The notes under the pieces are model-generated. The model made no database searches. It was not told the origin of the DNA and was given only the letters and a program-made list of their open reading frames with translations. The position numbers and the translations under genes are program-made. Shown here piece after piece: positions 4,483-50,447 of a DNA stretch of 52,754 bases. The stretch comes from Patescibacteria group bacterium (GTDB lineage: Bacteria > Patescibacteriota > Minisyncoccia > Minisyncoccales > RBG-13-36-15), in contig JAHCSE010000003.1 of the NCBI GenBank assembly GCA_018609195.1, positions 1 to 52,754 on the forward strand, in the 5' to 3' direction. Numbering within the stretch: the first letter of the stretch is position 1; the number at the start of each line of letters is the position of its first letter.

Positions 4483-5688
4483 TTAGTTGAGACTGCACAC
4501 AGCATTGCAATGCCAGCTAACGCCAGAAACATTTCGGCTGCAGAAGGTATAATCCGTAGTTGTGCGAATCGGCTGAACTACTCGCAGGTATCTGGCGCCT
4601 GTTCCGGCACCCCCTCCGCTACCAGTTATAAGGTGACTGGCAGCATTACAGAAAGCCCGGCAACCAGTGGTAGTGCTAGAGCAGGATTGGAATTTCACAT
4701 ACGTACGCCGTGTATACCGCGAATCACATACGCCGTTTGCGGCAGTGCAGACGCGGTTAGCCCCCTCATATAACCCTCCATCTCCTCGAATTCGGCCGGC
4801 AGTATAGACCCATTTGTTATTGTACGCCCGAATCCAGGTGGTGTCGGTCATATACCAGCCTCCGCCATAGGTTTGGTTGTACCAGCCTGCATTTCCGTAA
4901 CTCCGATGCCAGCTTGCATTGGCATCAATCACTTGCCTGCCGTCTACCTGGAATCCTCCATCTGCACGCATAATACTCGGAGTGTATACCCGCTTGCTGT
5001 TGTACGCCCGAATCCAGGTGGTGTCAGACATGTACCAGCCGCCCCCATAGGTCTGGTTGTACCAGCCAGTAGCACCCCTGCTCCGGAACCAGTTGTTGGC
5101 ATAGATAGTACCTGCAAGATCAATGTTGTTCATCCGCGAAGTTACGTCTGAATCCACGTACCAACCGGCGACATTATCGTTGTAACGATCTGCTCGCATC
5201 TGCCCTCGTACGTCGAGCTTGTGCCCTGGACTCGTCGTCCCGATGCCGACGTTGCCGCGAAACGTTGCACCCCCTTCATTCCAAAAATCAATTCGCCGAT
5301 TACTCCCCAGGGTTCCTCCACCAACAATGTTGAGAGATCCGGTACCGCCGATTCCTGTATAAAAGGTGTTGTACCCGATCTTTCCGGCGTTGACTTCTTT
5401 GGCGAACCCGCGGCCGAATTCAAGAGTTCCCGTACTCTCAATTTGTGCGGTAGGATTTGCTCCTCCGGCATCGATATGCAGTCTGGATAATGGACTCGTC
5501 GTCCCGATGCCGAGATCTCCGAGCCTGCCCTGGGTAACACTTCCCACATTAATGGGAGCTGGGACATTGCCTCCAGGGGGAGTTGCTGTTGGTTCAGTGA
5601 ATTGAGCAAAGACATACCAGACAAACAGAAAACTGATGGTAATCAGCCCCAAGACCAGGGCAATTGCTTTGTAATTTGATTTTACCAT
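4483..5688 (-). CDS. Pilin/adhesin-like protein with GIGTTSP repeats and PilV-tip/tail-fibre-like C-terminal repeats
   Basis: N-terminal hydrophobic segment, PPGGNVPAPINVG, GIGTTSP(L/G)xxLxx repeats, two WYNQTYGGGWYMxDTTWIRAYN repeats, Cys-rich C-terminus. Confidence 0.7.
   Translation of the reverse strand: MVKSNYKAIALVLGLITISFLFVWYVFAQFTEPTATPPGGNVPAPINVGSVTQGRLGDLGIGTTSPLSRLHIDAGGANPTAQIESTGTLEFGRGFAKEVNAGKIGYNTFYTGIGGTGSLNIVGGGTLGSNRRIDFWNEGGATFRGNVGIGTTSPGHKLDVRGQMRADRYNDNVAGWYVDSDVTSRMNNIDLAGTIYANNWFRSRGATGWYNQTYGGGWYMSDTTWIRAYNSKRVYTPSIMRADGGFQVDGRQVIDANASWHRSYGNAGWYNQTYGGGWYMTDTTWIRAYNNKWVYTAGRIRGDGGLYEGANRVCTAANGVCDSRYTRRTYVKFQSCSSTTTGCRAFCNAASHLITGSGGGAGTGARYLRVVQPIRTTTDYTFCSRNVSGVSWHCNAVCSLN
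4820..4887 (-). repeat. Direct repeat unit 1 in the PilV-like region
   Basis: TTGTACGCCCGAATCCAGGTGGTGTC...TTGTACCAGCC; near-identical copy 180 bp away. Confidence 0.8.
5000..5067 (-). repeat. Direct repeat unit 2 in the PilV-like region
   Basis: Near-identical to 4820-4887. Confidence 0.8.
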
Positions 5689-5747
5689 ATTCTTTTTATT
5701 GTCGTCTAGATACTTTATTATTCTTTGAGAAAGATAATAAAGTTACC

Positions 5748-5829
5748 CGGTCAACAATTTTAATTATCTTATTTTACTTTAGCAGATAAAAAAGCTGTCA
5801 ACAACAAGCCCGCGCTTTTGGCGCGGCCC
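5748..5829. repeat. Short (putatively empty) copy of intergenic repeat A
   Basis: AATTATCTTATTTTACTTTAG...GCTGTCAACAACAAGCCCGCGCTTTTGGCGCGG, same flanks as 8205-8465 without the ~200-bp hairpin segment. Confidence 0.7.
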
Positions 5830-5888
5830 GAAGAGAAAAACAATATTAAAGAAGCTATCAAAATAATTAAAAGATGTAATTTTTTCAT
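5769..5888 (-). pseudogene. Remnant ORF starting with a signal peptide
   Basis: ATG...TAA encodes MKKLHLLIILIASLILFFSSGRAKSAGLLLTAFLSAKVK; signal-peptide-like start running into repeat A; not in the ORF track. Confidence 0.4.
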
Positions 5889-5976
5889 TTTCTAAATTAT
5901 CGGGATCAGACCTCGATGATTCAGGTTATTTTAAGATAATTTTGATTTGGCTAGCTATACTATAATTTCTTTTCCT

Positions 5977-7725
5977 CTATCTGCCTTCCAATACCTCAAT
6001 TCTTTGTTTTAATACTTCATTATCTGCTTTTAATTCTTTTACTGCTTCAACGAGTACAGCTGTCAGTCTGCCATAATCAACTGCCTTATAGCTTTCATCT
6101 CCCCATGTGGTTACGAGTTCTGGAAACACGGTTTCTATCTCTTGAGCAATCACGCCAATCTCTCTATGTCCTGTAGAGCGGTCAAGCGACGCGTAAAGCT
6201 CATTCCAATCAAATGACACCCCTCTAATCTTTTCTAATTTCTCAAGCGCATTTGTAATTTGGGCTACATTGGTCTTGAATCTCACATCCGACGAAACAGG
6301 GAAACTTGAAGCATGAGCTGATCCAGCAACGTCTAATTTAAAGCCGGGGCTCCTCGTGCCGATGCCGACGTTACCTGATGTATCGATCGTGAGTCGATAT
6401 GCCGCAGCGTTAGCGTCCTGAATTGAGAATTTACCCGCATGGCCAGACGTCTCCCCAAAACTCAGGAATTGCCACATACGCCCTCCGAGCGACGTGTTGG
6501 AAATACCGACAATAGAAAATGAAGGACTAGGGCTTATAAAATCCGCAACCCGAAAGTTCGGGCTTATGAACTGAGAAGTCCCTAATGCTCTGAGAAAAAC
6601 GCCTCGATTTTCATCCGCATCAAATAATTCAAGTATTCCGTGACCGCTATTTGATGTTCGTATTTTCGCCCGAATATTATCTGCATCTCCAGAATCAAGT
6701 AGCGTAATTCCTCCGGAAGTCCCGCGTCCAGTAGAAACACTCAGCTTACTTGTAGGACTCGTCGTCCCGATGCCGACTAAATCTCCAAAGACATGTCTGG
6801 TACCATCCTCTGTTTGAATATGTAATGCTCCTTTTCCTGCAGTACCGCCACGATCAGCTACGTATAAGTTAATCGTATCTGGAGACACGCCTGGCGGAAT
6901 AATTTCGGTATCCCCCATACGGATAAATTTTTGGCCACTCTCGGTACCCGTAAACATGTTGATACCCCCATGAGCACTAACGATTAGTGTTTTATCAAAG
7001 GCATCACCATAAATCTCAAACGGAATATCGCCATCCCAATCCACAAACGCTAAATCACTTGAGTTCTGGGCTTTCATCGTCCAGGTCTTTCCTCCACCTT
7101 GACCTTCAAGTATTACCGAAGCACCCCATCCGTTAGAAAGGATAGAAAGGTTCATGGGGGCGTCGTTTCGTTCAAATGTAACATTACCTCCAAACACGTT
7201 GAGTTTCTCGCTAGGACTCAACATCCCGATGCCGACGTTGCCTGCGGTGTCGATTCTCATCTCTTCAGTAAAGGTACCAGCAGCTGTAATATCAGAAGCA
7301 GAGTAACGACCAAAACGTAATGGTGTAACGCTGTTGTGAGTTAATGCTCCCTCAATACCAGAATATTTCATTAACCCAACTCTCTTGGCACCGAATGCAT
7401 CAACCACAAAACCTTCTCCTTCTTGGTTTACGAAGACGGAGCCATTTACTTCTAATTTTTCACCCGGACTCGGCGTCCCGATGCCGACGTTGCCCTTGTC
7501 AACAATTAATCCTATAGTTGCACCCCCAGTATTAAGAATTAATCCTGCCTCTTTTGATTGGCCAAGAGGACCAACATTTAAAGGAGCAGGGACATTTCCA
7601 CCAGGCGGAGCCACAGTTGGTTCAGTGAAGGCAAAAATATACCAGACAAAGAGAAAACTGATGACGATTAATCCTAATGTGAGGGTGATTGCTTTGTAAT
7701 TTGGTTTTTGAAAAAATTGAGTCAT
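5977..7725 (-). CDS. Pilin/adhesin-like protein with GIGTxSP repeats and C-terminal peptidase S74 intramolecular chaperone domain
   Basis: PPGGNVPAPLNVG; repeated VGIGTxSPxxKLxV; C-terminal SDVRFKTNV...GVSFDWNE...EIGVIAQEIETVFPELV...AVLVEAVKELK coiled coil. Confidence 0.8.
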   Translation of the reverse strand: MTQFFQKPNYKAITLTLGLIVISFLFVWYIFAFTEPTVAPPGGNVPAPLNVGPLGQSKEAGLILNTGGATIGLIVDKGNVGIGTPSPGEKLEVNGSVFVNQEGEGFVVDAFGAKRVGLMKYSGIEGALTHNSVTPLRFGRYSASDITAAGTFTEEMRIDTAGNVGIGMLSPSEKLNVFGGNVTFERNDAPMNLSILSNGWGASVILEGQGGGKTWTMKAQNSSDLAFVDWDGDIPFEIYGDAFDKTLIVSAHGGINMFTGTESGQKFIRMGDTEIIPPGVSPDTINLYVADRGGTAGKGALHIQTEDGTRHVFGDLVGIGTTSPTSKLSVSTGRGTSGGITLLDSGDADNIRAKIRTSNSGHGILELFDADENRGVFLRALGTSQFISPNFRVADFISPSPSFSIVGISNTSLGGRMWQFLSFGETSGHAGKFSIQDANAAAYRLTIDTSGNVGIGTRSPGFKLDVAGSAHASSFPVSSDVRFKTNVAQITNALEKLEKIRGVSFDWNELYASLDRSTGHREIGVIAQEIETVFPELVTTWGDESYKAVDYGRLTAVLVEAVKELKADNEVLKQRIEVLEGR

Positions 7726-7799
7726 TTTATTTTTTCGAACTACCGGGGAATTCTACTATCTCTGATAGTAAAATTTTGTTAGTTCGGAGATTAATTATT

Positions 7800-8129
7800 T
7801 TATTTTGGAACAGTTAAATCTTTCATAATTTCTTCTGGAACTGGGGGAGGTTCTTTTGGAGAAGGAGCAGTCAAACTTTCGATTACCTCCGGGGGAACTT
7901 CTTCCATAGCCCCTCTTTTTTCTTCAGGAACAGTTAAATCTTTCAGAATCTCCTCCATTGTTTTTTCTTGAGGTAGAGGAGAAACTTCTGGTTGAGGAGC
8001 TTCTTTTTTTAGAAAAATGAAAATGAAGATTCCCAAAATAACAACAATCCCCACGATAATTAAAATCAAAACCTGAGGAGTGAATTTCCAGCTTTTACCT
8101 AAAGAGACCCCTGGGTTGATGAATTTCAT
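7800..8129 (-). CDS. Small membrane-anchored protein with LTxP repeats
   Basis: Single TM then three degenerate repeats EEILKDLTVPEE / EVIESLTAPSPK / EEIMKDLTVPK. Confidence 0.6.
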   Translation of the reverse strand: MKFINPGVSLGKSWKFTPQVLILIIVGIVVILGIFIFIFLKKEAPQPEVSPLPQEKTMEEILKDLTVPEEKRGAMEEVPPEVIESLTAPSPKEPPPVPEEIMKDLTVPK

Positions 8130-8232
8130 TTATTTTATTAACCTTTGACTCGATTGTTTGTTAATCATATCTCAATAAAGAAAATAATAAAATAGTAAGA
8201 CGACAATTTTTAATTATCTTATTTTACTTTAG

Positions 8233-8435
8233 TAAGCAGAAAGTCGCTCATCCTTTTCCAGCCTTGGGCTGGCGCTCCCGAGCACATAACGGTTTATGTG
8301 CTCGGTCGCTTCGGACTCGCTCCCCAGAAACCTCTCGGTTTCTGGCGTTCGCTCCACTCACTGTTTTCCTATACGGGAAAACACCCAGTTTTCCCGACCC
8401 TTTTCTGCTTTTTTGTTAATATTAACAAAAAAGGT
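8233..8435. repeat. Hairpin-rich structured element, copy B
   Basis: Successive hairpins CCAGCC/GGCTGG, CCGAGCACATAA/TTATGTGCTCGG, CCAGAAACC/GGTTTCTGG, GTTTTCC/GGGAAAAC/GTTTTCCC, and 26-nt palindrome CTTTTTTGTTAATATTAACAAAAAAG; related to 50268-50447. Confidence 0.8.
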
Positions 8436-8448
8436 AGCTGTCAACAAC

Positions 8449-8472
8449 AAGCCCGCGCTTTTGGCGCGGGCT
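8449..8472. terminator. Terminator-like hairpin downstream of clpP
   Basis: AGCCCGCGC-TTTT-GGCGCGGGCT; the same hairpin occurs at 5805-5829. T-tract weak on the minus strand. Confidence 0.5.
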
Positions 8473-8498: not shown

Positions 8499-9083
8499 TT
8501 ATCCTTTTTGTTGAATTACCTCATCAATAATGTTATATTCTTTAGCTTCCTCAGCTGATAAATAAAAATCTCGGTCAGTGTCTTTTTCCACTTTTTCTAT
8601 AGGTTGGCCGGTATGGTGAGCTAAAATTCTATTGAGTTTATCTTTAATTTTCACAATTTGCCTCGCAGTAATTTCTATTTCCACTGCCTCACCGGTCACC
8701 CCACCTGCTACCTGGTGGAGTAAAATTTCAGCATTTGGTAATGCAAATCTCTTTCCTTTTTCCCCAGCTGCCAATAGGGTAGCCCCCATTGAACCTGCCA
8801 ACCCAATACAGACTGTGGAAATAGGACACTTGACATATTGCATGGTGTCATAAATTGCTAATCCCGCAGTGACCGATCCCCCGGGGGTGTTAATATAAAG
8901 CTGAATCTCTTTGTTTGGATCTTGGGAAGCCAAAAAAAGCATCTGGGCAATAATTGAATTTGTCATTACATCAATAATGGGGCCAGCTAAAAAGATTATT
9001 CTATCTTTTAAAAGCCGAGAATAGATATCATAGGCCCTTTCTCCATATTGGGTTTTTTCAATAACAGTAGGGATTAAGTTCAT
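8499..9083 (-). CDS. clpP: ATP-dependent Clp protease proteolytic subunit
   Basis: [31 protein letters not shown] and [18 protein letters not shown], catalytic S/H/D retained. Confidence 0.97.
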
Positions 9084-49924: not shown

Positions 49925-50222
49925 ATAGTTGTTCGCTCCGCTCACGAACTATTTTTTAGAAACCCACGGTTTCTAACGCTCTCCTCCGAAGAGCTGTTTT
50001 CCTACACGGGAGGAAACGCCAATGCGTTTCCCCCGACCCCCACTTAAGAGGACTTCCGTCCTCTTACGTCACTCGTTATCACTCGTTCCTATCTCCTCGA
50101 CGGGGGAAACGCCTTTTCACCCCGTATAGGAAAATAGGAGTGAGGAGCCGTAAGGCGACGAATGACGTAAGAAACCGAGGGTTTCTTAAGCTGAGGGTCG
50201 GGGTGAAAAGATACCTCCCGAC
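49925..50222. repeat. Hairpin-rich structured element, inverted pair D1/D2
   Basis: TTAGAAACC-CAC-GGTTTCTAA, TTTTCCTACACGGGAGGAAAC...GCGTTTCC, AAGAGGAC-TTCC-GTCCTCTT; reverse-orientation half contains AAGAAACCCTCGGTTTCTT...TTTTCCTATACGGGGTGAAAAGG. Confidence 0.75.
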
Positions 50223-50267
50223 CCCTCCTGTGATTATATCGGAACTTGAAACTTCCGATATAATAAA

Positions 50268-50447
50268 AAAAAGACCTTGTTAAAGGTCGCTCATCCTCTT
50301 CCAGCCTTCGGCTGGCGCTCACCTTGTTCGCTTCGGATTCACTCCTTAAAACCCCTCGGTTTTAATATTTCCGCCACGGGAAAACACCCAGTTTTCCCGC
50401 CCCTTTTCTGCTCTTTTTGCTAATTTAAAATTAGCAAAAAGGTCTTT
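50268..50447. repeat. Hairpin-rich structured element, copy C, bounded by AAAGACCTT/AAGGTCTTT
   Basis: GGTCGCTCATCCTCTTCCAGCC-TTC-GGCTGG..., TTAAAACC-CCTC-GGTTTTAA, CGGGAAAACACCCAGTTTTCCCG, CTTTTTGCTAAT-TTAAA-ATTAGCAAAAAG; homologous to 8233-8435. Confidence 0.8.

Follow-up and report, generated by a model that had tools for sequence, protein, structure and literature searches.

The 203-bp insert at 8.2 kb of the window (the whole stretch of DNA that was analysed, 52,754 nt) is probably a copy of a small, non-coding, non-autonomous mobile element of Patescibacteria that integrates by replacing the end of the gene it enters. The central result, which lies beyond what the initial annotation could see, is this replacement of the target's end together with the displacement of the old one. 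On sequence evidence we find direct repeats, a fixed order of arms and core (A, A', core), the same target position across genera, mostly synonymous divergence between the incoming and the displaced end (A and A''), empty orthologues and a misplaced rpsI unit, as well as precise junctions, target regeneration, a displaced fragment, target reuse and the presence of a foreign end. Most likely this is a gene-end-replacing miniature integrative element without a description in the open literature that we searched (subscription journals and preprints lay outside its scope).

According to our hypothesis the mobile unit would consist, in gene direction, of A (a working target end), A' (the inverse of the start of A) and a hairpin core (GGGTCGG...GCGAC). 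A would usually be a gene 3' end with its stop codon, sometimes a tRNA 3' end and, in the window, the -10 of a promoter. The unit would enter by horizontal transfer, presumably in a single-stranded form in which A'-core-A folds and the stem rebuilds the target as a duplex, comparable to the CTX phage, and a host Xer-type tyrosine recombinase or a similar enzyme would act on it. On integrating at the corresponding position of a host gene, the unit would join the host 5' part to the incoming A and push the host end (A'') beyond the core. Because the host 5' part is joined to an incoming A, the target gene would stay whole, and the element apparently spreads without killing it.

The initial annotation had described two sites with shared flanks, about 10 bp apart at 5.8 kb and about 200 bp apart at 8.2 kb, and the measured spacings are 10 bp and 203 bp. 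The left flank is shared by 5754-5782 and 8203-8232 (29/30 nt, 97%, one difference in the genome match table) and the right flank by 5793-5826 and 8436-8469 (34/34 nt, 100%), with E-values of 3.6e-11 and 1.4e-6 for the two matches in a single-genome search. The same search returned no further match to either flank elsewhere in G000, the genome of which the window is contig C3 (854 kb, 98.8% complete). It had been foreseen that the similarity might be confined to the terminator hairpin (8448-8469); it also takes in TTGTTGACA (8439-8447) and 30 nt past the insert. Reading along the minus strand, one meets clpP, its terminator and TTGTTGACA in this order, and the flanks are the clpP terminator and a putative promoter (TTGTTG-N17-TAAARN). 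As we read the alignment, the 8.2-kb insert sits inside this promoter.

In three genomes of the same family (G001, G002 and G003) clpP is followed by a terminator and a promoter without the element, the promoter reading TTGTTG-N17-TAAGAT in G001 and TTGTTG-N17-TAAAAT in the other two. The 5.8-kb site (TTGTTG-N17-TAAAGT) aligns with these promoters and looks like an intact, unoccupied duplicate of the terminator-promoter sequence. Because it matches the empty orthologues, we ruled out that it is an excision scar. The initial proposal had been insertion into, or excision from, a duplicated intergenic or terminator sequence: insertion into a duplicate stands, excision does not, and the point of insertion lies in the promoter and not in the terminator. 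The parts of the copy are listed in Table 1. Of two related proteins encoded at 4483-7725 of the window, which are similar at their N-termini, one contains Shufflon_N and the other a Peptidase_S74 chaperone domain, and G003 has a relative immediately 3' of clpP.

Table 1. Features of the window copy and of the empty site at 5.8 kb.
Feature	Position	Strand	Evidence and remarks
clpP	8499..9083	-	Upstream of the element in RNA direction; Pfam PF00574 (CLP_protease), 266 bits; orthologues in 29/30 relatives
clpP intrinsic terminator hairpin	8448..8469	-	Second copy at 5805-5826, 100% match; GC hairpin likewise placed in G001
-35 hexamer TTGTTG of the interrupted promoter	8442..8447	-	Aligns with G001, G002, G003 and the 5.8-kb site; putative promoter role
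-10-like TAATAT, 17 bp from the -35	8419..8424	-	Compared with native TAAAAT of G003; would be the promoter end restored by the element
A, CTTTTTTGTTAA, start of the restored target end	8422..8433	-	Perfect 12-bp complement of A'
A', TTAACAAAAAAG, inverted copy of A directly before linker and core	8408..8419	-	Sequence; layout in 32/87 copies
Conserved core GGGTCGGG ... GCGAC	8243..8400	-	Model R1 match 8318-8404, E 8e-24
Hairpin P1, loop UGGGU, covarying stem	8374..8396	-	Folding and covariation
Hairpin P3, CCAGAAACC..GGTTTCTGG	8324..8345	-	Folding; covarying TT/AA and CC/GG base pairs
Variable hairpin P4, 12-bp stem	8278..8305	-	Folding
Hairpin P5, CCAGCC..GGCTGG	8258..8272	-	Folding
A'', displaced native target end with native -10 TAAAGT (8226-8231)	8226..8242	-	Continues into 8203-8232, matching the empty 5.8-kb site
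Empty duplicate: terminator, -35 TTGTTG (5799-5804), -10 TAAAGT (5776-5781), uninterrupted 17-bp spacer	5754..5826	-	Alignment

The insert had been called hairpin-rich, and the region folds with z = -10 relative to shuffles, both as RNA and as single-stranded DNA. We propose that the target here was the promoter after clpP and that TAATAT was brought in by the element as a replacement for its -10. In this copy A and A'' are similar over only ~10 nt, with no direct repeat above the null, and its A' test taken alone is not significant (p 0.16-0.20). Because its own repeat is short and diverged, the place of the window copy in the scheme rests on its layout and on the family.

With a covariance model derived from 29 copies we count 24 copies in G000, the window copy included. 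The element is present in 47 of 147 relatives of the same order, with up to 27 copies per genome, and in 26 of 379 genomes sampled across the phylum; the records with a matching element are Patescibacteria or bacterial MAGs. The mobility suggested in the initial annotation is supported by this patchy presence and by the three same-family genomes in which the site after clpP is empty. It had been allowed that relatives might not differ in presence and absence; they do, the differences being seen between species (one genome per species). Within-genome bursts were not detected, as cores of one genome are not more alike than cores of different genomes (G006 excepted), and two pattern scans of viral contigs gave no match to the element. 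Three more model matches of mixed orientation lie within 460 bp at 49950-50407 of the window, with palindromes in common, and appear to be nested or inverted copies. In a second group of copies (L098, L118, L119, L143, L147, L166, L167 and others) the 5' end, CCCACATCGG, is conserved and the 3' end runs into ..TATTACCACTATGG at gene starts, not gene ends.

Across the family the layout in gene direction is gene-A-stop, A' (the inverse of the first 10-20 nt of A), core and A'', the displaced old end. In 31 of the 88 copies compared, the core is flanked by direct repeats that exceed a null obtained from mismatched flanks; the window copy is among the 57 without such a repeat. Some copies below the null carry shorter repeats (rpsG in L092 and L176, read by eye), and some of the copies without a repeat above the null may be old insertions. 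The repeats are mostly coding 3' ends through the stop codon, with targets that include rpsI, rpmJ and tRNAs; two of the repeats, 66 and 75 nt long, are exact and reach no further than the stop codon. Many of the genes entered at their ends across Patescibacteria are essential. Gene names are our reading of the translated ends, except for clpP (Pfam) and for fusA and GAPDH (homology searches). In 55 cases a long gene on the same strand lies upstream, and in 44 of these no more than 150 nt separate its stop from the core. The inverse A' is significant against the upstream sequence in 32 of 87 copies (p<=0.05) and against the displaced end directly 3' of the core in 29 of 87.

Reuse of one target gene by copies in different genomes was seen about ten times, among others for fusA, rpsG and GAPDH in several genera. 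The fusA repeat begins at the same codon in three genera (G000, G002 and G024), the GAPDH end is repeated in G000 and G020, and the pgk end in G000 and G084. In G023 tRNA 3' ends are targeted: one copy sits on tRNA-His, and tRNA-Arg has a tandem array, made up of cores and tRNA-Arg 3' ends (767-1670 of L146), whose third repeat ends precisely at GGGGGTC, where P1 has its base. The starts of the targets (n=25) show a weak bias, GATTKKG, at the crossover, with G at position 7 in 16 of 25, and since the bias is only weak we find it difficult to believe in a single sequence-specific integrase. Sharing a target does not make cores more similar to one another than cores drawn at random, and a sister relationship between them is not supported. 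Consequently, inheritance unit by unit is not seen, and either modules have been exchanged or targets have been hit repeatedly. In L186 (G000:C1 21500-33000) four copies lie within 7 kb of the str/S10 operon, after rpsG, fusA, rpsJ and rplD, and there the rplD frame continues into the core and gains a core-encoded tail.

Two lines of evidence bear on which of the two ends is foreign. First, thirteen coding A/A'' pairs differ at 105 synonymous and 42 nonsynonymous positions (pN/pS 0.11), and the nonsynonymous share is 29% where 66% is predicted if one copy were dead (p 7e-20). Because the differences are mostly synonymous, we conclude that A and A'' diverged in different genomes, both as working gene ends. 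Secondly, in element-free relatives fusA and GAPDH run directly into the type of UTR or terminator that is found 3' of A'' in G000, and of six comparisons with same-family genomes five place A'' nearer than A and one is a tie, with small margins. Our reading is that A would have come with the element and that A'' would be the native end.

One copy in G085 carries the rpsI end (FGLKRARRAPQWQKR-stop), together with its A', but is placed within the final codons of a gene that is unrelated to rpsI and located upstream of infA, at a distance of 4.3 kb from the true rpsI; this case surfaced as the best match of the repeat search for larger versions. The site is without an insert in G063, of the same genus, and in G020, and the end of the gene is uninterrupted in G000 and G002. 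An rpsI end in an unrelated gene means that A, A' and core move as one unit. Judged by the right flank, the target has no more than AAT.T.GAT in common with the rpsI start, which suggests that a short match may be enough for integration. In L306, L309 and L310, also upstream of infA, the same spacer holds a different palindrome (TTCGACAAGCTCA / GAGCTTGTCGAA).

These observations weigh on two rivals that we regard as about equally improbable. One is a transposon-like repeat with a long target-site duplication, in which A and A'' would both be host sequence and A' would arise by fold-back synthesis at insertion. Repeats that are identical or nearly so over 66-113 nt (L154, L126 and L117) and the unrelated targets would suit it. 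However, it predicts a dead A'', whereas the differences between A and A'' are mostly synonymous; in diverged copies A' fits A better than A''; and the rpsI end has travelled with the core into another gene. The other rival, to which we likewise give little credence, is that the element has no present mobility and owes its distribution among species solely to the exchange of whole alleles of the same gene by ordinary homologous recombination (natural transformation). Such exchange would yield a foreign A and a native A'' at conserved genes and explains the reuse of fusA, rpsG and GAPDH in several genera, but it leaves both the initial copy at every target and the ectopic G085 insertion unaccounted for. 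Moreover, the sequence just upstream of A in GAPDH is still family-like, and foreignness begins at or near the core boundary, although this point is weak.

The core is non-coding and reads, in RNA direction, GGGTCGG, P1 (loop UGGGU), GTRTAGGAAAACAG, a variable P2, P3 (AGAAACCG..GGGTTTCT), optional P4 and P5, and the end GCGAC. Its stems covary: 210 cells are changed on both sides compared with 65 in shuffles, and none of 500 shuffles reached as high. Slid controls were all far lower, and a smaller set of copies also covaries. Strong covariation and the bias in gene direction are what would be expected of a cis-acting RNA (a 3' UTR or 5' UTR regulator) under selection, with mobility as a by-product. 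We consider this very unlikely, given that presence is patchy within the family, the neighbouring genes are unrelated, coding ends are directly repeated, and a comparison with Rfam 15 gave nothing credible at gathering or permissive thresholds.

Several known systems share parts of the design of the gene-end-replacing element. Integron attC hairpins form a recombination site after a gene 3' end, and recognition based on structure would allow variable stems. The hairpin site 3' of a gene end is common to both, but our element brings only the gene end and not the gene, and no integron integrase or attI was identified (the search was for PF00589 in general). A regenerated target and a displaced fragment are the signature by which integrase islands are recognised (PMC4383910), and this signature is found in the 31 copies with direct repeats and in the codon analysis. 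Islander islands resemble the element in that these features mark their ends, tRNA and gene 3' ends are targeted, and tandem copies occur (PMC4383910). They differ in carrying an integrase gene and in being kilobases long (peaks at 13.6 and 39.9 kb), whereas the element has ~200-300 bp, no gene and many unrelated targets. An integrase has no room on board units of 200-300 bp, and no larger autonomous version with cargo was found in a repeat search of ~9 kb on each side of 40 loci.

In the CTX phage, attP1 and attP2 lie ~90 nt apart in inverted orientation and single-stranded DNA folds there into a forked hairpin with a stem that imitates the chromosomal site (PMC3089051). In the element A' and A would similarly flank ~90-200 nt of hairpins, and their complementarity provides inverted arms around a spacer that would fold to a target-like stem. 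CTX uses dif sites and two Xer recombinases (PMC3089051), whereas the stem sequence of the element differs per locus; the arms do not resemble one dif-like Xer site, as the starts of A differ between loci. REP/BIME, GTAG and CGTC repeats are likewise dispersed palindromic non-coding repeats near gene ends, and the CGTC type has no known transposase; but they are single palindromes of 20-40 bp without target replacement, and Patescibacteria are not among the phyla given for CGTC repeats (PMC3733652). That our dispersed, intergenic, hairpin-forming copies at gene 3' ends are REP/BIME-like palindromic repeats moved by a RAYT (Y1) transposase is scarcely credible, as Y1 transposases are absent from G000, G020, G103, G116 and G023 (24, 27, 9, 12 and 7 copies) and gene-end duplication is not described for REPs, which measure 20-40 bp (PMC3733652).

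As for the enzyme that would mobilise the element, the foremost candidate is a tyrosine recombinase of the Xer type, given that most genomes encode one. No recombinase is tied to the element: at least one tyrosine recombinase (PF00589) was found in 16 of 18 carriers and also in 14 of 16 non-carriers. A second one occurs in 8 of 18 carriers compared with 1 of 16 non-carriers, but this difference is not decisive because many high-copy carriers have only one. Y1 transposase was excluded as a general mobiliser on the grounds that its presence is uncorrelated with that of copies. Reverse transcriptase (group II intron, DGR or retron) was also excluded, since RVT_1 is absent in most carriers, with none in G000, G001, G002, G006, G020, G103, G116 and others.

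If our interpretation is right, a dispersed, horizontally moving element repeatedly enters the most conserved operons of Patescibacteria, as in the insertions after rpsG, fusA, rpsJ and rplD of one genome, without loss of function in the targeted genes, since it carries the end of the gene that it hits. Target specificity would then be coded in the short arms of the element and not in an integrase, which makes it a testable case. We tentatively raise the possibility, to which we give somewhat less than even chances, of a new class of minimal integrative element (<~300 bp, non-coding) whose site is set by a built-in A and A' around a constant core, which is readdressed by a change of A and A' and recombined by host enzymes. 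Were this true, it would be a naturally programmable, gene-preserving insertion system. Annotators of these genomes would have to reckon with imported gene ends, promoters and terminators, and stray fragments of gene ends can be the footprints of insertions. The element would also provide a marker for gene exchange among uncultured ultra-small bacteria.
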